NCBI GenBank assembly: GCA_020438485.1
Contig: JAGQUM010000019.1
Location: forward strand, 1-58,513
Origin: Thermoleophilia bacterium
Lineage (GTDB): Bacteria > Actinomycetota > Thermoleophilia > Miltoncostaeales > Miltoncostaeaceae
DNA length: 58,513 nucleotides
Direction of reading: 5' to 3'
Shown: positions 33,355 through 50,445 of the stretch, one piece after another
Position numbering within the stretch: position 1 is the first letter of the stretch
Layout of the letters: each line of letters begins with the position of its first letter
Notes under the pieces: model-generated
The model's input: the letters and a program-made list of their open reading frames with translations, nothing else
Database searches by the model: none
Told to the model about the DNA's origin: nothing
Translations under genes and position numbers: made by a program

Positions 33355-33907
33355 GCAGCGGACGGCCGGCCGCGGGGGAAACCTCGGCCAGCCAGTCCTC
33401 CACGCCGGCCCGATACGCCGGCACCAGGTGGCCGCGTGGGCGGGCGTCCAGCACGGCGGTCGCGGCGTCGTCCTCGCCGAACCCCAGCTGCCGCAGGATG
33501 GCGTACGCCACGAACACCGATCGGCGGCGGCCCTGCTGGCAGTGGACGAGCACCTGGGCGTCGGGGTCATCGCGCAGGGCCTGGGCGCCGAACACGGCGG
33601 CGGGGGCCCACAGCGCGGGATCCTGGGGGCGCCCGTGGTCCCACATATCGGCGTGGGCGACGCGGTCGGCGCCCAGGACCTCGCGCTCGATCCACAGGTC
33701 CTGGCTGACGACGTTCTGGAGGGACTTGCGGCAGTTCACGACGTGCGTGAACCCGTGAGAGGGCAGCCGGTCGGCCTCCTCCGCCACCGGCAGCGCCCCG
33801 ATGGCGAGCCGCGGCATCTGCGGCACCCGCGTGAAGCCCCGCAGCTCCCGCGATGGGGTGTAGACGCGGGTGCTGACCCGCTGGATCGCCCTGCGGACCG
33901 GGTTCAT
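33350..33907 (-). CDS. Dual-specificity/tyrosine phosphatase-like protein in the fatty-acid operon
   Basis: The 185-residue product carries the cysteine-phosphatase signature HCQQGRRRS, with catalytic Cys123 and Arg129 (C-x5-R). It has an upstream candidate general acid Asp in VAHADMWDHGR (about 87 or 90), as in dual-specificity phosphatases. The N-terminal LAIGALPVAEEADRLPSHGF is also typical of the family. Its ATG overlaps the fabF stop (ATGA), so it is co-translated with fatty-acid enzymes, and it precedes accD by 7 bases. Its target might be a phosphoprotein, a lipid or a nucleotide; the operon position suggests a role in lipid synthesis. Confidence 0.85.
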   Translation of the reverse strand: MNPVRRAIQRVSTRVYTPSRELRGFTRVPQMPRLAIGALPVAEEADRLPSHGFTHVVNCRKSLQNVVSQDLWIEREVLGADRVAHADMWDHGRPQDPALWAPAAVFGAQALRDDPDAQVLVHCQQGRRRSVFVAYAILRQLGFGEDDAATAVLDARPRGHLVPAYRAGVEDWLAEVSPAAGRPLR

Positions 33908-35178
33908 CGGCGGTACCCGGGGTCGGCCACGACGAGCGCCGCGTTGTGACCACCGAAGCCGAACGCGTTGGAGACGGCGACGTCGACCGTGGCCCGCCGG
34001 GACGTGCCCAGCACGTGGTCCACCCCGGCGCATTCCGGGTCGAGGTCGGCCACGTTGATGGTGGGCGGCACGAGGCCGTGGCGGATGGCCAGTGTCGTCA
34101 GCGCCACCTCGAGGCCGCCGGCCGCGCCGAGGCAGTGACCGTGCATGGACTTGGTGCTGCTCACCATGCAGCGGGCCGCGTGCGTGTCTCCCAGCGCCAT
34201 CCGGATGACGCGGACCTCGCTGGGGTCGCCGACCGGCGTCGACGTGGCGTGGGCGTTCACGTAGGCCACGGCCCCGGGCTCGATCTCGGCGTCCGCCATC
34301 GCCATGCGCATGGCCGCCGCGGGGGCCTCGCCCGTGGGGTCGGGTTCCGTGAGGTGGTGTGCGTCGCCGCTCAGGCCGTAGCCCAGCAGCTCGGCATACA
34401 CGTCCGCGCCGCGCGCCACCGCGTGTTCGCGCTCCTCCAGCACCAGCACGGCGCCCGCCTCGCCCATCACGAACCCATCGCGGTTGGCGTCGAACGGGCG
34501 GCTGGCGGCGGCGGGGTCGTCGTTGCGCGTGGAGAGAGCCCGCATCGCGTTGAACGCGCCCATGCCCAGCTCGTTGATGGACGTCTCCGACCCGCCGGCA
34601 AGGATCGCGTCGGCCCTTCCGAGCCGGATGGCGTCGAACGCCTCGCCGATGGCGTGGGCGGACGTGGCGCACGCGCTGACGGTGGCCAGCAGCGGGCCCC
34701 GCAGCCCCAGGGTCATCGACACCTGGGCCGCCCCCATGTTCGGGATCATCATGGGAATGAACAGGGGCGACAGCCGGTCGGGACCGCGCTCGAGCATGGC
34801 CACCGTCTGGTCGACGAACGTCTGCAGGCCGCCGATGCCGCTGCCGAAGTAGACCCCGATGCTGTCGCGCTCGGCCGCGGCGTCGAGTCCCGCGTCGTCG
34901 AGGGCCATCCGGGCGGCGGCCACGGCGAACTGGGCGAACCGGTCCATGCGCCGCGCGGCCCGCTTGTCCATGAAGTCCTCGGGCGAGAAGCCCGGGACCT
35001 CGCACGCGATGCGCGTGGGCAGCCGGGAGGGGTCGAACGACGTGATGGGCCCGCCGGCTCCGGCGCCCGCGGACGCCGCCGCCCACGTGGCGTCGCGGCC
35101 GATTCCCAGCGGGGTCACGAGGCCGATCCCGGTGACGACGACGCGACGCAGCCCGGCGGGGCGGGGACGGCGGTTCAT
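33904..35178 (-). CDS. fabF: 3-oxoacyl-ACP synthase II
   Basis: FabF elongates acyl-ACP by condensation with malonyl-ACP. The 424-residue thiolase-fold enzyme has the nucleophile in VSACATSAHAIGEAF, the first His in VNAHATSTPVGD, and the second in STKSMHGHCLGAAGG. The start MNRRPRPAGLRRVVVTGIG has a basic lead of about 12 residues. It lies 13 bases downstream of fabG; acpP, which often sits between these genes, is absent. The stop is coupled to the phosphatase gene (ATGA). Confidence 0.96.
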   Translation of the reverse strand: MNRRPRPAGLRRVVVTGIGLVTPLGIGRDATWAAASAGAGAGGPITSFDPSRLPTRIACEVPGFSPEDFMDKRAARRMDRFAQFAVAAARMALDDAGLDAAAERDSIGVYFGSGIGGLQTFVDQTVAMLERGPDRLSPLFIPMMIPNMGAAQVSMTLGLRGPLLATVSACATSAHAIGEAFDAIRLGRADAILAGGSETSINELGMGAFNAMRALSTRNDDPAAASRPFDANRDGFVMGEAGAVLVLEEREHAVARGADVYAELLGYGLSGDAHHLTEPDPTGEAPAAAMRMAMADAEIEPGAVAYVNAHATSTPVGDPSEVRVIRMALGDTHAARCMVSSTKSMHGHCLGAAGGLEVALTTLAIRHGLVPPTINVADLDPECAGVDHVLGTSRRATVDVAVSNAFGFGGHNAALVVADPGYRR

Positions 35179-35191
35179 GCGCGCACCCCGG

Positions 35192-35923
35192 TCACATCGA
35201 CAGCCCGCCGTCGACGGGCACCACCGTGCCCGTCATGAACGCCGACGAGGGACCGCACAGGAACGCGGCGACCTCCGCCACGTCCTCCGCCGTGCCGAGG
35301 CGCCCCAGGGGCGTGCTCGCCACGATGCCGTCCCGTAGCTCGTCCGGCAGATCGGCGGTCATGTCGGTGGTGATGTAGCCCGGGGCGACGGCGTTGACGC
35401 GCACGCCGCGCGAGCCCACCTCGCGGGCTAGCGAACGGACCATTCCGATGAGTCCGGCCTTCGCCGCCGCGTAGTTGACCTGGCCCGGGTTGCCCATCAG
35501 CGCCACGACCGACGACACGGCCACGATGCTGCCGGACCGGCGCTTCATCATCCCCCGCAGGGACGCGCGGGCCACGTAGAACGACCCCGACAGGTTGGTG
35601 TCGATGACAGCCTGCCAGTCGTCGTCGCTCATGCGCAGCATCAGGCCGTCGCGGGCGATGCCGGCGTTCAGCACCAGCGCGTCCAGCGGGCCCACCTGCT
35701 CCTCGGCCCCGGCGACGATGGCGGCGGCGGCCTCCGGGTCCGCCTGGTCGCCCTGCACGGCGGCCCCGGCGCGGCCCGCGGCCCGCACTGCCGCGAGCGT
35801 GCGCTCGGCGCCGTCGCGGTCACCGGCGTATCCGACGGCCACGTCGAAGCCGTCGCGGGCCAGCGCGACGGCCGTGGCGGCGCCGATCCCCCGGCTGGCA
35901 CCTGTGACGAGCGCAACCGGCAT
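35192..35923 (-). CDS. fabG: 3-oxoacyl-ACP reductase
   Basis: FabG reduces 3-oxoacyl-ACP with NADPH. The 243-residue short-chain dehydrogenase shows the cofactor motif VTGASRGIGAATAVALA, LVLNAGIARDGLM, and the catalytic triad in SSVVALMGNPGQVNYAAAK (Ser, Tyr-x3-Lys). The C-terminal VNAVAPGYITTDMT and GTVVPVDGGLSM are typical of FabG. The ATG at 35923 is supported by GAGGGGG a few bases upstream, and it begins two bases after the fabD stop. Confidence 0.95.
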   Translation of the reverse strand: MPVALVTGASRGIGAATAVALARDGFDVAVGYAGDRDGAERTLAAVRAAGRAGAAVQGDQADPEAAAAIVAGAEEQVGPLDALVLNAGIARDGLMLRMSDDDWQAVIDTNLSGSFYVARASLRGMMKRRSGSIVAVSSVVALMGNPGQVNYAAAKAGLIGMVRSLAREVGSRGVRVNAVAPGYITTDMTADLPDELRDGIVASTPLGRLGTAEDVAEVAAFLCGPSSAFMTGTVVPVDGGLSM

Positions 35924-35925
35924 GC

Positions 35926-36834
35926 CTACCCCCTCGAGAGCGCCGCGAGGTCGTTCATCTCGCTGACGTGCAGCGTCTCCACGTCGCGGCGGATGCGCTT
36001 CACGAGGCCCGACAGGACCTTTCCCGGCCCGAACTCGATGAAGCGCTCGGCGCCCTCCTCGAGGGCGATCTCCACCGCTGCGCTGAACCGCACCGGGGAC
36101 GTGAGCTGCTCCAGGAGCACCGCACGCATGCGCTCGGGGGGCTCCACCGCGCACGTCGTGGTGGACAGGAAGGGCGGATCGGCATCGGACGGCGTCCACG
36201 ACGCCAGGGCGGGTTCGAGCCGGGCCGCGGCGGGGGCCATCAGCGGCGAGTGGAAGGCGCCCGCCACGTGCAGGCGGGCGATCTTCGCCCCCCGCTCGGC
36301 GGCCAGCGCCACGAGCCGGTCCACGCCCTCGATGGTGCCCGACACCACGACCTGCCTGGGGCAGTTGAAGTTGGCCAACCACACGTCGCCGGCCTCATCA
36401 CACATCACCTGGACGTCGTCGTCGGACTGGCCCAGCACCGCGGCCATCGTGCCCGGGTGCGACTCGCCGGCGGCCTTCATGGCGGCGCCGCGCTCGGCCA
36501 CAATTCGCAGGGCGTCGGCGAACGGCAGCGCGCCGGCCGCGACGAGGGCCGAGAACTCGCCCAGCGAGTGGCCCAGGACGACGTCGCCCGCGACGCCCTC
36601 CTCGCGCGCCACGCGCCACGCGGCCGTGGTCATGGCGACCAACGCGGGCTGGCACACGTCGGTGCGGGTGAGCTCCTCGTCGGGCCCCTCGAAGCAGATC
36701 CGCGACAGGCCGTAGCCCAGCGCGTCGTCGGCCTCCTCGAAAGTCTCGCGGGCCAGGCGGGAGCCCATGGCGAGGTCGCGGCCCATGCCGACGACCTGGG
36801 CGCCCTGGCCCGGGAATAGCAGAACGGTTCTCAT
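35926..36834 (-). CDS. fabD: Malonyl-CoA:ACP transacylase
   Basis: FabD loads malonyl groups onto the acyl carrier protein. The 302-residue protein starts with LLFPGQGAQVVGMG and has the nucleophile elbow LGHSLGEFSALVAAG, an active-site His in GAFHSPLMAPA and the C-terminal FIEFGPGKVLSGLVKRI. The ATG at 36834 overlaps the fabH stop (ATGA). Length is normal for the family. Confidence 0.96.
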   Translation of the reverse strand: MRTVLLFPGQGAQVVGMGRDLAMGSRLARETFEEADDALGYGLSRICFEGPDEELTRTDVCQPALVAMTTAAWRVAREEGVAGDVVLGHSLGEFSALVAAGALPFADALRIVAERGAAMKAAGESHPGTMAAVLGQSDDDVQVMCDEAGDVWLANFNCPRQVVVSGTIEGVDRLVALAAERGAKIARLHVAGAFHSPLMAPAAARLEPALASWTPSDADPPFLSTTTCAVEPPERMRAVLLEQLTSPVRFSAAVEIALEEGAERFIEFGPGKVLSGLVKRIRRDVETLHVSEMNDLAALSRG

Positions 36835-37844
36835 GGTTCGTAGCTCACGATCGTCGACGCCCACGTCAGCCCGGCCCCGAAGCCCACCAGCAGCACCCGC
36901 ATGCCGGGGGCGAGGACCCCCTGGTCGCGGGCCTCGGTGAGCGCCAAGGGGATCGACGCGGCGCTGGTGTTGCCGTACTTCTCCACGTTGTTGAAGACCT
37001 TTGACGGATCGACGCCGAGGCGGCCCACGGCGTGATCGATGATGCGCTGGTTGGCCTGGTGGGCCACCAGCAGGTCGACGTCCCCGATGGACATGTCCAG
37101 GGCGTCCAGCAGACGGGAGGTCGTCTCCTCCATCGCCCGCGTCGCGAACTTGAACACCTCGCGGCCGTTCATCTGAAGGTACGCGTCCTGCGGCTCGAAC
37201 GCCTTGGCCGCAGGATGCCGGGTGCCGCCGACCGGGATGAGCAACTCGCATCCCAGCGACCCGTCGGCGCCGAGATCGAACCCCAGGAAGCCGTTCGTGG
37301 AGCCGGGGTCGCCGGCCGTGACCAGCGCACCCGCGGCGCCGTCGCCGAACAGGATGCTGGTCGAACGGTCATCGGGGTTCACGAGGTTCGAGAACTTCTC
37401 GGCGCCCACCACGAGGACGTTGTCGGCCCATCCCGACTCGATCATCGAGGCGGCCTGGGCCAGCGTGTAGACGAACCCGCTGCACGCCGCCTGAAGGTCG
37501 AACGCCGCGGCGCGGCGCGCCCCGATGCGGTCGGCCGTGAGCGCGGCGACGGACGGGAACAGGTAGTCGGGGGTGCACGTTGGCACGATGACGGCGTCGA
37601 GGTCGGCGGCCGCGACGCCGGCGTCGTCGAGGATGGCCTGCGCCGCCCGCACGGCGAGGTCGCTCGTGGCCTCATCCTCTGCCGCGTAGCGCCGCTCACG
37701 GATGCCGGTGCGGCTGAAGATCCACTCGTCGGTCGTGTCCATGCGCGCGACGAAGTCGGCGTTGGTCACGACCCGGTCGGGGACGTACGCGCCCAGGGCG
37801 GACAGGCGCGCCCGGGCGGGGCGGTCACGGCGGACGCTGATCAC
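36831..37844 (-). CDS. fabH: 3-oxoacyl-ACP synthase III
   Basis: FabH starts fatty-acid synthesis by condensing acyl-CoA with malonyl-ACP. The 337-residue protein has the catalytic Cys in LQAACSGFVYTL, His in VAHQANQRII and Asn in YGNTSAASIPLAL. GTG 37844 is chosen because it overlaps the fabZ stop (GTGA) and gives normal length; an upstream ATG at 37892 would intrude into fabZ. The intact WIFSRTGIRERRY segment fits the CoA-binding region. Primer preference (straight or branched) cannot be read. Confidence 0.95.
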   Translation of the reverse strand: MISVRRDRPARARLSALGAYVPDRVVTNADFVARMDTTDEWIFSRTGIRERRYAAEDEATSDLAVRAAQAILDDAGVAAADLDAVIVPTCTPDYLFPSVAALTADRIGARRAAAFDLQAACSGFVYTLAQAASMIESGWADNVLVVGAEKFSNLVNPDDRSTSILFGDGAAGALVTAGDPGSTNGFLGFDLGADGSLGCELLIPVGGTRHPAAKAFEPQDAYLQMNGREVFKFATRAMEETTSRLLDALDMSIGDVDLLVAHQANQRIIDHAVGRLGVDPSKVFNNVEKYGNTSAASIPLALTEARDQGVLAPGMRVLLVGFGAGLTWASTIVSYEP

Positions 37845-38278
37845 GGGGCCTGACCGTCCTCCACGAACGCGAACGAGATGGACGCCTGGCACGCGAGGAC
37901 GCCCTCGACGTGTGCGGTGCCGTCGGCCCAGCCGACCCTGCCGCGCGTCTTCGTGATGGTCGTGCGGACGTCCAGGGTGTCGCCGGGCACCACGGGCCGG
38001 CGGAACCGCACCTTCTCGATGCCCGCGAACAGCGCGAGCCCCCCCGCGTTCTCCGGCAGCGCCATGCCCGCGATCGCCCCCGCCTGCGCGATGGCCTCCA
38101 CGATCAGCACCCCGGGCAGGATGGGCCTGCCCGGGAAGTGGCCGCGGAACACATCCATGTCGGGCCGCGGCGCCCAGCGCGTGTGCGCGCTCGTGCCGGG
38201 GTCGAGTTCGACGATCTCGTCCACGAACAGGAACGGCTCCCTGTGGGGGATGAGGTCGCGGGGATCAGGGGGCGCCAT
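37841..38278 (-). CDS. fabZ: 3-hydroxyacyl-ACP dehydratase
   Basis: FabZ dehydrates 3-hydroxyacyl-ACP. The 145-residue hot-dog-fold protein shows IPHREPFLFVDEI, the catalytic His in FRGHFPGRPILPGVLIVEA with its partner Glu, and FAGIEKVRFRRPVVPGD. It is the first gene of the minus-strand fatty-acid operon. A -10-like TACGAT ends 10 bases before the ATG, so the operon transcript may have almost no leader. It is divergent from ku across an 86-base gap. Confidence 0.95.
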   Translation of the reverse strand: MAPPDPRDLIPHREPFLFVDEIVELDPGTSAHTRWAPRPDMDVFRGHFPGRPILPGVLIVEAIAQAGAIAGMALPENAGGLALFAGIEKVRFRRPVVPGDTLDVRTTITKTRGRVGWADGTAHVEGVLACQASISFAFVEDGQAP

Positions 38279-44770: not shown

Positions 44771-45313
44771 CTATTTTGTGTCCCAGGAGCGCTGTATCGA
44801 GGCCGCCGCGGCCCGCTCCAGCGCCGCGCGCAACTCGGGGTCGCCGGCCCCCGCCACCAGACCCCTCGCGGCGCTGCGCGCGGCGGGCCCCGGCGTGACG
44901 GGCACGCGAACCGCGGGTCCCGAGGGCGGTGGGATGGCGTGGTCGGCGATGGTGAACCGCAGGCCCCGCACCGGCTCGCCCAGCGCGGCCCCCAGTGCGT
45001 CGGCCAGAGCGTCGGCGCGGAAGGCGAGCTTCTGCGCCAGGCCCGCGTCGGCGCACGCCACGGTCACCACGCCCGCCCGCGAGCGGCGCACCGGGATGGA
45101 TCCCACCCGGTCGGCGCCCGCGACGGAGGTCCACGCGTCAGCGGCGGCCGCCACGCCGAACGGATCGGCCGGACGGGGCCGCGCGCGCGAGTCGCGTGGC
45201 GCCTGCGCCGCGTAGCGCGCGAAGCCGGCCGCCAGCGGGGCGGGGTCCTTGCGGCGCCGCTTACGCCGCGATGTCGGCGGGGACCCGGATCTCGGCGGCG
45301 TCGGGGACGTCAT
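44771..45313 (-). CDS. dciA: DciA-family protein (DUF721), replicative helicase-associated
   Basis: DciA helps load or work with the DnaB helicase in bacteria without DnaC. The 180-residue product has a basic proline-rich lead (TSRRKRRRKDP) and the DUF721 core: VAAAADAWTSVAGADRVG, then GVVTVACADAGLAQKLAF. The C-terminal tail is alanine-rich. Position between recF and gyrB is the usual actinobacterial place. ATG 45313 overlaps the end of recF by 53 bases; GTG 45322 is an alternative with three more codons. The basic lead suggests nucleic-acid binding. Confidence 0.82.
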   Translation of the reverse strand: MTSPTPPRSGSPPTSRRKRRRKDPAPLAAGFARYAAQAPRDSRARPRPADPFGVAAAADAWTSVAGADRVGSIPVRRSRAGVVTVACADAGLAQKLAFRADALADALGAALGEPVRGLRFTIADHAIPPPSGPAVRVPVTPGPAARSAARGLVAGAGDPELRAALERAAAASIQRSWDTK

Positions 45314-46394
45314 CGGTGACACGGTACCGCGTGTCGGCCGTCGTGATGATGGTCTGCCCCTGCCGCGCGACCGCGTCCAGCAGTGCGCTGCGGCGCAGCG
45401 GGTCGAGCTCGCTCAACACGTCGTCGAGCAGCAGGATCGGGTGGGCGGCGGCCTCCGCCAGCAGGTCGCGGTACGCCACGAGCAGCGCCAGTGCCACCGT
45501 GCGCTGCTCGCCCTGACTGCCGAGGCGCCGCGCGTCGAGGTCGTCCCACCCCATCCACAGGTCGTCGCGATGGGGACCCGCCAGGGTCATCCCTGCCGCG
45601 GCGTCGCGGTCGCGGCGCTCTGCCAGGTACGCGGCGAACGCGTCCGCCCACTCGTCGTCGGGCACGTCGGCGAGGGCCCGCGGGGACGGCTCGCGCCGCA
45701 CCGCGCCTCCAGAGGCACCCCCCAGCGCCGACAGCCAGGCCGCGAACGGGACGGCCAGCCGCGCCAGGGCATCGCGGCGGGCGACGACGATGGCGGCCCC
45801 GCACACGCCCATCCGGGCCTCCCAGACGAACGCCTGGTCGAGCGCGGCGCGGTCGGCCACCCCCCGCGCGCGCCGCAGCAGCGCGTTGCGCTGGGCCAGC
45901 GCCGCCGCGTAGTCGGACAGGGCCTGCGTGAACCCCGGTGAGATCGCCTCCAGCACCCGGTCGAGCCCGCGACGGCGAGCAGCGGGAGGCCCCTTGACGG
46001 CGCGCAACTCCTCGGGAACGAACACCAGGACGCTGCCCGGCAGCCGCCAGCTCAGCAGGCGCGCCGCCGGCACGCCGTCCTCCGCCAGCCGGCGTCCCAC
46101 GCGCGGCTGGTAGCCGATGTCGCGCGCCGACGTGGCCCCGTCCGGTCGTGTGAGACCCGCGTGGACGTGGAAAGCCGGCGCCCCGTGCGCGACGACGTCG
46201 CCGAGCTGAGCGGTGCGCGGAGAGGCCCCGACGGCCGCCAGCACCACCGCCTCCACGAGGGACGTCTTGCCCGCGCCGTTGTGACCGGTGAGCACGGACA
46301 CCCCGGGCGGGAACGCGACGGAGGCCCGCGGCCAGCACCGCACGTCTCGCACGTCCAGTGCGTCCACGCGCCACGCCCGGGCCAGGACGCTCAC
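45261..46394 (-). CDS. recF: DNA replication and repair protein RecF
   Basis: RecF is an ABC/SMC-type ATPase that loads RecA at gaps with RecO and RecR. The 377-residue protein has Walker A GHNGAGKTSLVEAV (38-51), the signature-like LGSQGEQRTVALALLVAY and Walker B PILLLDDVLSELDPLRR. The C-terminal TIITTADTRYRVTDDVP is the usual family end. The GTG start lies 7 bases after the dnaN stop. Its end overlaps dciA. The gene order gyrB-dciA-recF-dnaN-dnaA is conserved around actinobacterial origins. Confidence 0.95.
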   Translation of the reverse strand: MSVLARAWRVDALDVRDVRCWPRASVAFPPGVSVLTGHNGAGKTSLVEAVVLAAVGASPRTAQLGDVVAHGAPAFHVHAGLTRPDGATSARDIGYQPRVGRRLAEDGVPAARLLSWRLPGSVLVFVPEELRAVKGPPAARRRGLDRVLEAISPGFTQALSDYAAALAQRNALLRRARGVADRAALDQAFVWEARMGVCGAAIVVARRDALARLAVPFAAWLSALGGASGGAVRREPSPRALADVPDDEWADAFAAYLAERRDRDAAAGMTLAGPHRDDLWMGWDDLDARRLGSQGEQRTVALALLVAYRDLLAEAAAHPILLLDDVLSELDPLRRSALLDAVARQGQTIITTADTRYRVTDDVPDAAEIRVPADIAA

Positions 46395-47829: not shown

Positions 47830-47838
47830 TTATCCACA
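47830..47838 (+). other. DnaA box (perfect)
   Basis: TTATCCACA, identical to the DnaA-box consensus, lies 40 bases past the dnaA stop. Confidence 0.7.
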
Positions 47839-47878: not shown

Positions 47879-49270
47879 TCAGGAGTTCCCCGTGAGACGG
47901 GTCGTGAGGTCCGTCACGGCCGTGTAGATCTCGCCCTCATCCTTGATCTGGTCGGTGATCTTCTGCACGGCGTACAGCACGGTGCTGTGATCGCGGCCGC
48001 CGAACGCGCGGCCGATGGCCGGCAGGGACGAGTCGGTGAGGTCCCGGGTGAGGAACATCGCTACCTGGCGAGGGGTCACCAGGCGGCGAGTGCGCTTCTG
48101 GCCCACGAGCTCGTCGTGGCTGATGCCGAAGTAGCGGCAGACCTCGCGCTGGACATGCTCGACGGTGATGGCGCCCTGGTCGGCCGGGTAGAGGTTGCGC
48201 AGCACGTCGTTGGCCAGCTCGACGCTGACGGGACGACCATCGAGCGCCGCGTGGGCGATGACGCGGTTGAGCGCGCCCTCGAGCGCCCGCACGTTGGAGC
48301 TGACGCGCTCGGCGATGACCGACAGCACCTCGGGGTGCGCGATGTGGATTCCCTCCGCCGCGGCGCGCTTGCGCAGGATGGCGATGCGGGTCTCGACGTC
48401 CGGCGGCTGGATGTCGGTGATCAGGCCCATCTCGAACCGCGAACGCAGACGGTCCTCCAGCGTCGCGATCTCCTTCGGGGGGCGGTCCGAGCTGATGATG
48501 ATCTGCTTGCCGCCGTCGTGGAGCGCGTTGAACGTGTGGAAGAACTCCTCCTGCGTCTGTTCGCGGCCCGCCAGCGACTGGATGTCGTCGATGAGCAGGA
48601 CATCGACGGAGCGGTAGCGGTCCTTGAAAGAGTGCATGTTGCCGTCGCGCAGCGCGTTGATGAACTGGTTGGTGAACGTCTCGACCGAGACGTACATGGT
48701 GCGCAGCTCGGGCGTGGTCTCGTTGATGAAGTTGCCGACCGCGTGCAGCAGGTGGGTCTTGCCCAGCCCGACGCCGCCGTAGATGAACAGAGGGTTGTAC
48801 GCGCGGGCGGGGGCCTCGGCCACGGCCATGGCGGCGGCGTGGGCGAACCGGTTGGACGGGCCCGTGACGAAGCCGTCGAACGTGAACCGGGAGCGGTTGG
48901 GACCGGCGTAGGACGCGGGCAATCCGGTCGGGGCGGGAGGAGCCGGCGCGGGGGCCGAGGCGACCGCCCCGGGCCCCGCGTGGGCCGAGCCGCCGGGGGC
49001 GTCGTCGGTGGGTTCGACGCGCACGTCGATGACGAGGTCCTCACGCTGGGTGACCTCGTACAACGCGTCACACATCAGGGTGAGGTGGCGCGTGCACATC
49101 CACTCGCGGGCGAAATCGGTCTCGACGCCGACGACCAGGGTGTCACCCGAGAACGCCAGGGGACGGGCCCGGGTGAACGTGAACTCGTACGCGGCGGGGG
49201 GCATGGCCGAACGGATTCGCTCCGTCATGTCCTCCCACAGCTGCAGCAACTCGACCGACGACACGTCCAC
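47879..49270 (-). CDS. dnaA: Chromosomal replication initiator DnaA
   Basis: DnaA binds and opens the origin. The 463-residue protein has the N-terminal DnaB-interaction domain (LLQLWEDMTERIRSAMPPAA), a proline/alanine-rich linker (about 90-125), and the AAA+ domain with Walker A GGVGLGKTHLLHAVGN (165-180) and Walker B VLLIDDIQSL. The C-terminal DNA-binding signature is GRDHSTVLYAVQKI. GTG 49270 is the first start before the conserved domain; GTG 49264 is possible. No Shine-Dalgarno is seen, but the stop of the upstream GHKL ATPase gene lies four bases away, suggesting translational coupling. Confidence 0.96.
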   Translation of the reverse strand: MDVSSVELLQLWEDMTERIRSAMPPAAYEFTFTRARPLAFSGDTLVVGVETDFAREWMCTRHLTLMCDALYEVTQREDLVIDVRVEPTDDAPGGSAHAGPGAVASAPAPAPPAPTGLPASYAGPNRSRFTFDGFVTGPSNRFAHAAAMAVAEAPARAYNPLFIYGGVGLGKTHLLHAVGNFINETTPELRTMYVSVETFTNQFINALRDGNMHSFKDRYRSVDVLLIDDIQSLAGREQTQEEFFHTFNALHDGGKQIIISSDRPPKEIATLEDRLRSRFEMGLITDIQPPDVETRIAILRKRAAAEGIHIAHPEVLSVIAERVSSNVRALEGALNRVIAHAALDGRPVSVELANDVLRNLYPADQGAITVEHVQREVCRYFGISHDELVGQKRTRRLVTPRQVAMFLTRDLTDSSLPAIGRAFGGRDHSTVLYAVQKITDQIKDEGEIYTAVTDLTTRLTGNS

Positions 49271-49274
49271 GAGC

Positions 49275-49985
49275 TTAGAAAAGCGACGCCAGGAGCGACG
49301 CACCCGACTCGTCGAGGACACGGCACCCGTCGTCGCGGCGCGTCACGAGGCCGCGCGCCTCGAGCGCGACGAGCTCGCGCCCACAGCGGCCCAGCGTCCA
49401 GCCGAGTTCGTCGGCCAGCCTGTCGGGCCGCGACGGGCCGGTCTCGAGCAGCAGCGCCATGAGGATGCGGGCGTCGTCCGAGACGGTGGCCTCGAGCGCA
49501 CCGACGTCGCGGACGGGGACGCTGAGCGTCACCACCGTGCCGCCCGCGAGGTTGGCGTCGAGCTCGAACTCGCCACCCTCGGCGTCGATCACCTGGGCCG
49601 CCAGTGGCAGGCCACTGCCCACGCCGCGGACGATTCCGCGCTGCTCGGCGGTTGCGGTGGTGTAGCCGGGCTGCATGGCGCGCTCGTGATCGGCGATACC
49701 GGGCCCTGAGTCGGAGACGCGCACGACGTGCCCGTGCTCGAACACGCTGACGAGGGCGTCGCGGAACTCCGCGTGGACGAGGTTCTCGATGATCTCGCGC
49801 AGCGCCACGACGGGAGGACGTGCCCGGCGGGCGGCGGCCTCGTACAGACGCTCCACCAGCACGGCGGCGTCCGAGTCGGAGATCTCCTCGAGGTACGGCG
49901 GCTCGCCGGGCTGGGTGTAGATCGCGATGCGGGCGCTCAGCGGCCGGTCGGCGATCGTGGTGTGTGGGCGGGCTCGGGTGGTCAT
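49275..49985 (-). CDS. GHKL-type ATPase with C-terminal winged-helix-like segment, next to dnaA
   Basis: The 236-residue product has a histidine-kinase-like ATPase fold: the N box [12 protein letters not shown] (Asn68), the G1 box VSDSGPGI (Asp92) and the G2 box [11 protein letters not shown] (121-126). No phosphoacceptor His, sensor or membrane segment is present, so it resembles stand-alone anti-sigma/RsbW-type kinases. After the ATPase, residues 170-230 ([20 protein letters not shown], then a recognition-helix-like stretch and [10 protein letters not shown]) look like a winged helix. It ends four bases before dnaA on the same strand, and so is likely co-transcribed with it. I do not know a characterised homologue in this position. 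Confidence 0.75.
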
Positions 49986-50190
49986 CCGTGTGGAGGCGGC
50001 GGTGCGGCGTGCGGGTGTGTCGAAGGACTGTAACCAGCGGCTCCCGGCATCCGAAAGGGCTCGGAGCCCCTGTGGAGAACGTTCCTGTCCTCCGAGCGGG
50101 AAAAAGGCGTCCTGGGCGCTACAGCATGCCCCGGACGGCACGGAAGAAACCCTGCTCAGAACGTTTAGCGAGCGATATCCACAGACGTTT

Positions 50191-50202
50191 CCACACGTGT
50201 GG
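50191..50202. repeat. Palindrome CCACACGTGTGG formed by two facing DnaA-like boxes
   Basis: Perfect 12-bp dyad whose arms are the cores of two inverted DnaA-like boxes. Confidence 0.5.
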
Positions 50203-50239
50203 ACGACGAGAGGGCGTGGTGAGCAGGGGCGTCGTTTGG

Positions 50240-50310: not shown

Positions 50311-50445
50311 GTGAAGAGGACCTACCAGCCGAACAGGCGCAAGCGGAAGAAGACGCACGGGTTTCGCAAGCGCATGAGCACGCGCGCCGGCCGCGCGATT
50401 CTGAAGCGCCGCCGGGCCAAGGGCCGCGCAAGCCTGTCGGCCTAG
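50311..50445 (+). CDS. rpmH: 50S ribosomal protein L34
   Basis: L34 is a tiny basic protein of the large ribosomal subunit. The 44-residue product [20 protein letters not shown] followed by [18 protein letters not shown] is unmistakable. The GTG at 50311 has AGGGAG about 10 bases upstream. It is the first gene of the rpmH-rnpA-yidD-yidC-khpB cluster, divergent from dnaA as in many bacteria. Confidence 0.98.

Follow-up and report, generated by a model that had tools for sequence, protein, structure and literature searches.

The gene HATP, which lies immediately ahead of dnaA in the window (the whole stretch of 58,513 nucleotides that was analysed), encodes a 236-residue protein composed of a GHKL ATPase and a winged helix, and it is vertically inherited and single-copy. 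The reading preferred here, with a probability of roughly 0.55, is that HATP is an ATP-gated DNA-binding protein whose gene opens the dnaA transcription unit and which regulates dnaA expression or oriC activity. From the strict linkage to dnaA, the close spacing, the ATP switch and the DNA-binding domain, we infer this regulatory role in replication. How DnaA is regulated is known for a few model bacteria, and varies by lineage. No published account of initiation control in the HATP-bearing classes of Actinomycetota was found, nor was any description of the gene in the open-access literature. HATP represents a conserved, single-copy candidate initiation regulator for this set of classes, gut Coriobacteriia and Rubrobacter included, and opens a direct genetic and biochemical test of initiation control in them.

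HATP is encoded on the minus strand at positions 49275 to 49985, with an ATG at 49985 and a TAA at 49277-49275, while the plus-strand reading of the same stretch is interrupted by an internal stop. It heads the dnaA cluster, the minus-strand order being HATP-dnaA-dnaN-recF, then gyrB and gyrA. The dnaA gene (47879 to 49270, minus strand; TIGR00362, 518.6 bits) probably starts with the GTG at 49270, which leaves a 4-nt gap after the HATP stop; an in-frame alternative start is present at 49321. A previous sequence-only reading, which described a 236-residue protein ending four bases before a same-strand dnaA, was therefore right, given this likely start and the minus strand. On the other side, rpmH (50311 to 50445, plus strand) and rnpA are divergent from HATP, and beyond them lie what read as yidD, yidC, jag, rsmG and parA, these five being judged from translations only. 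The identity between HATP homologues is about 75% within the same genus and about 30% across the phylum. Since the homologues span the phylum with E64, N68, D92, G94, G96, G121 and G125 invariant in 64 sequences, the frame is no chance ORF. As regards the remaining neighbours, a 183-aa frame without a Pfam match at 1e-6 lies between recF and gyrB (44771 to 45322, minus strand), the usual place of dciA, and past gyrA, in the same direction, genes for fatty-acid synthesis are found (ketoacyl-ACP synthase III, short-chain reductase and beta-ketoacyl synthase; 33904 to 37892, minus strand).

The ATPase half carries the sequence hallmarks of the GHKL superfamily. Residues 61-159 (49509 to 49805, minus strand) score 39.9 bits with the HATPase_c family PF02518, whose cutoff is 26.4, and contain an N-box (E64-x3-N68), a G1 box (D92-x-G94-x-G96) and a G2 box (G121-x-G123-x-G125). 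In addition to the residues named above, H71, G107 and G149 are invariant in the 64 homologues, H71 being the sole invariant histidine and sitting within the N-box. Neither a HisKA/DHp nor a sensor domain was detected by Pfam search, and about 60 residues precede the N-box, so that the earlier claim of intact N, G1 and G2 boxes with no phosphoacceptor His or sensor is upheld. Judged by its residues, the N-box is of the hydrolytic type (Glu-x3-Asn, MutL-like) and not histidine-kinase-like; the top PDB match of the N-box half is MutL (E 9e-6), with E64 and N68 aligned to the Glu/Asn pair of MutL, followed by branched-chain dehydrogenase kinase and SpoIIAB. HATP thus looks able to hydrolyse ATP. 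Histidine kinases make up much of the PDB matches of the profile, yet HATP is not a histidine kinase, since it has no DHp with a phosphoacceptor His. Nor does it belong with MutL, as the mismatch-repair transducer and dimerisation domains are missing and Pfam gives only HATPase and winged-helix matches, nor with the SpoIIAB/RsbW anti-sigma factors, given a PF13581 (HATPase_c_2) score of 17.0 against a cutoff of 27.4 bits and the extra winged helix.

The second half corresponds to a MarR/CggR-like winged helix at the C-terminus (residues 166-236; 49278 to 49490, minus strand), present in all relatives with a complete frame. AlphaFold2, run twice on a two-sequence alignment of the window protein and its L034 counterpart, gave a confident winged helix at about residues 167-236 (helix-helix-helix-strand-strand-helix, pLDDT about 83). 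With VIA-align, the modelled tail matched MarR-type regulators with Z of 12-14, DNA-bound MarR, MepR and CggR structures included; CggR (8r3g) superposes on 67 residues of the model at 0.9 A, while Rv0880 reaches a Z of 13.9. The fold is therefore that of a MarR-type winged helix, although the Pfam matches stay below threshold, both for MarR_2 (PF12802, 20.3 against 27 bits) and for DprA_WH (22.7 against 22.9). In the same models the ATPase half, for which a Bergerat fold would be expected, had a pLDDT mostly under 50 and was not reliably modelled, so the assignment of the ATP site is founded on sequence. Accordingly, of the proposal that structure prediction should return an HATPase plus a winged helix, the second part was supported, whereas the first is represented by invariant ATP-site motifs and not by a confident model. 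In Coriobacteriia, a long proline/glutamine-rich linker stands ahead of the winged helix.

The linkage to dnaA was examined at loci picked by their HATP match and not by dnaA. In 88 of 91 genomes, covering 26 families, dnaA is directly downstream of HATP on the same strand, a figure which comprises 84 of 91 direct cases and four single-contig records starting with dnaA and ending with HATP (a raw tally of 85 of 92 counts one genome twice, G001 being L034); in the other three the contig ends within 2-368 nt. The pair is thus retained across the classes of Actinomycetota, well beyond one strain, and more widely than the single class that had been named as sufficient support. With a search covering Actinomycetota, HATP was found in 65 of 399 genomes of the class Thermoleophilia and 156 of 396 of the phylum, among them Miltoncostaeaceae, Rubrobacter, Coriobacteriia and many uncultured families, each listed genome having a single match at E <= 1e-15. 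The family names come from sequence matches: two plasmid contigs of G025 show 100% identity to Miltoncostaea oceani records, which places the family of the window in Miltoncostaeaceae; plasmid matches mark family f23 as Rubrobacter; and a short f45 contig, seemingly an rRNA operon, has Collinsella as its best match, at 90%. HATP was absent from the sampled genomes of the class families f3 and f5-f8, and also from a large clade taken as Actinomycetes and their relatives; since much of the phylum lacks it, it is not a universal requirement. In 29 genomes lacking the gene, no HATP-like frame was present upstream of dnaA, and rpmH, where in range, was divergent from dnaA, mostly with no recognisable gene between them. 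When mapped on the DnaA tree, the presence of HATP requires 7 changes, against a mean of 24 with shuffled labels, and HATP and DnaA distances are correlated (r = 0.51, a value reached in none of 999 permutations). An apparently recent loss is seen within a single genus: of the genomes L151 (G412) and L100 (G439), one carries HATP, while in the other about 600 bp separate rpmH from dnaA and HATP is absent. A mobile or phage origin was discarded, since no viral or phage relatives were found, and the matches on a Sinorhizobium plasmid correspond to an ordinary sensor kinase beside a response regulator.

The two genes may also be linked at the level of translation. If dnaA is assigned the furthest upstream start codon available, the gene overlaps the stop of HATP in 9 of 85 loci, and in about two thirds of the loci it starts no more than 30 nt from that stop. 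In the window, no Shine-Dalgarno sequence precedes dnaA, as previously noted, the anti-SD pairing being -1.5 kcal/mol (random 19-mers of the window: mean -3.7, s.d. 2.6), and HATP itself also lacks one. The overlaps and short gaps, together with the missing dnaA signal, make it plausible that dnaA translation is coupled to HATP. The exact spacing is not conserved, reaching 100-200 nt in a few lineages. In the mechanism proposed, the binding and hydrolysis of ATP would toggle a GHKL dimer between forms, and this change would alter how the winged helices bind somewhere within the origin region rpmH-HATP-dnaA, which could in turn tune transcription of the HATP-dnaA operon, DnaA assembly at oriC, or both, while translational coupling would hold HATP and DnaA in proportion.

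The same linkage and coupled translation would also suit a stoichiometric partner, and the rival which survives best, at perhaps one chance in four, is that HATP acts on the DnaA protein in the manner of DiaA, HobA and SirA, as an ATP-dependent partner or Ser/Thr kinase binding DnaA (perhaps at domain I), with the winged helix serving protein contact or recruitment to oriC. The presence of SpoIIAB, both kinase and anti-sigma factor, among the PDB matches of the profile would fit such an activity. However, the winged helix is a conserved feature of every member, and R203 is kept in 62 of 64 sequences, as expected for a DNA-binding helix. To our knowledge, DiaA, HobA and SirA have folds unrelated to HATP, and their genes are not placed before dnaA. 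As DnaA domain I partners, they resemble it in being taxon-restricted initiation regulators (PMC13270200). The domain I dimer of DnaA has been described as a feature of Actinomycetes (PMC13270200, 2026), and its spread is roughly complementary to that of HATP, which is only suggestive, but several Thermoleophilia families outside the Actinomycetes also lack the gene.

A less probable alternative is that HATP does no more than autoregulate its operon, or that it controls unrelated genes, and that it is merely sited before dnaA with no dedicated replication role. The order of genes around oriC tends to be well kept, so two genes may stay adjacent for that reason alone, and many lineages live without HATP. 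Nevertheless, the HATP-dnaA pair is kept where rpmH is about 2 kb off (L041, L110) or out of range (family f2), and no copy away from this locus was seen in any genome. It is very improbable that HATP is a decayed histidine kinase, or what is left of an anti-sigma factor, and lacks any specific function, for in spite of the PF02518 match and the many histidine kinases among its structural matches, the residues of the ATP site do not vary within the phylum, the N-box is MutL-type, DHp is absent and single-copy orthologues are retained.

Returning to HATP as an ATP-gated regulator of dnaA or its origin, the protein shares traits with several known systems. It shares the hydrolytic Glu-x3-Asn N-box and the G1 box with MutL/GyrB-type ATPases, but lacks their transducer or endonuclease domain, has a G2 region nearer to histidine kinases, and adds a winged helix. 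Like SpoIIAB and RsbW, to which its profile weakly matches, it is a stand-alone GHKL domain with Glu-x3-Asn and no DHp, although it carries the winged helix and sits by dnaA rather than by a sigma factor or STAS gene. Residues 158-236 have the fold of MarR/CggR regulators (Z 12-14), but the domain to which they are fused is an ATPase rather than a ligand or dimer domain. A report on Staphylococcus aureus (PMC10746227) describes control of the dnaA region by WalKR, likewise a signalling ATPase system tied to DNA replication; WalKR is a two-component system with phosphotransfer, whereas HATP is all-in-one and encoded directly before dnaA. A broader and more tentative proposal, rather less likely than the regulatory role itself, would be a form of initiation control as old as the phylum, in which a GHKL switch that senses ATP and carries a DNA-binding domain is translated together with DnaA and couples the firing of the origin to energy state in the deep branches of Actinomycetota. 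In Actinomycetes, where DnaA instead dimerises through domain I, this control would have been lost or replaced.

As for the sites on which HATP might act, the 58.5 kb hold just three DnaA boxes with one mismatch or none, two of them between rpmH and HATP and the third between dnaA and dnaN. The former include TTCTCCACA (one mismatch; 50071 to 50079, minus strand), near the presumed operon promoter, and the latter is the perfect box TTATCCACA (47830 to 47838, plus strand). Upstream of HATP lies a conserved triple DnaA-box element, TCGTCCACA-n2-TGTGGAAAC-n3-TGTGGATAT (50175 to 50206, minus strand), whose general form, TTnTCCACA-n2-TGTGGA...-TGTGGATAA in a 23-bp register, precedes HATP in most classes. 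This element was rejected as an HATP operator, because it also precedes dnaA in genomes that lack the gene, being conserved in much of Actinomycetota whether HATP is present or not (loci L005-L129 and L131-L159), and it is best read as a site of DnaA's own. A comparison of clades revealed no phylum-wide HATP-specific site, only DnaA boxes and a CCTGC block being shared, with and without the gene. In 25 of 29 Miltoncostaeaceae sequences, a block [AT]TT[TC][CG]CCGC stands about 66-152 nt ahead of HATP, and the remaining four have close variants; its copy in the window, TTTTCCCGC (50096 to 50104, minus strand), is a candidate operator. As a separate observation, the dnaA-dnaN gap of Rubrobacter (L093, L101) contains 17-18 DnaA boxes, far above other families.
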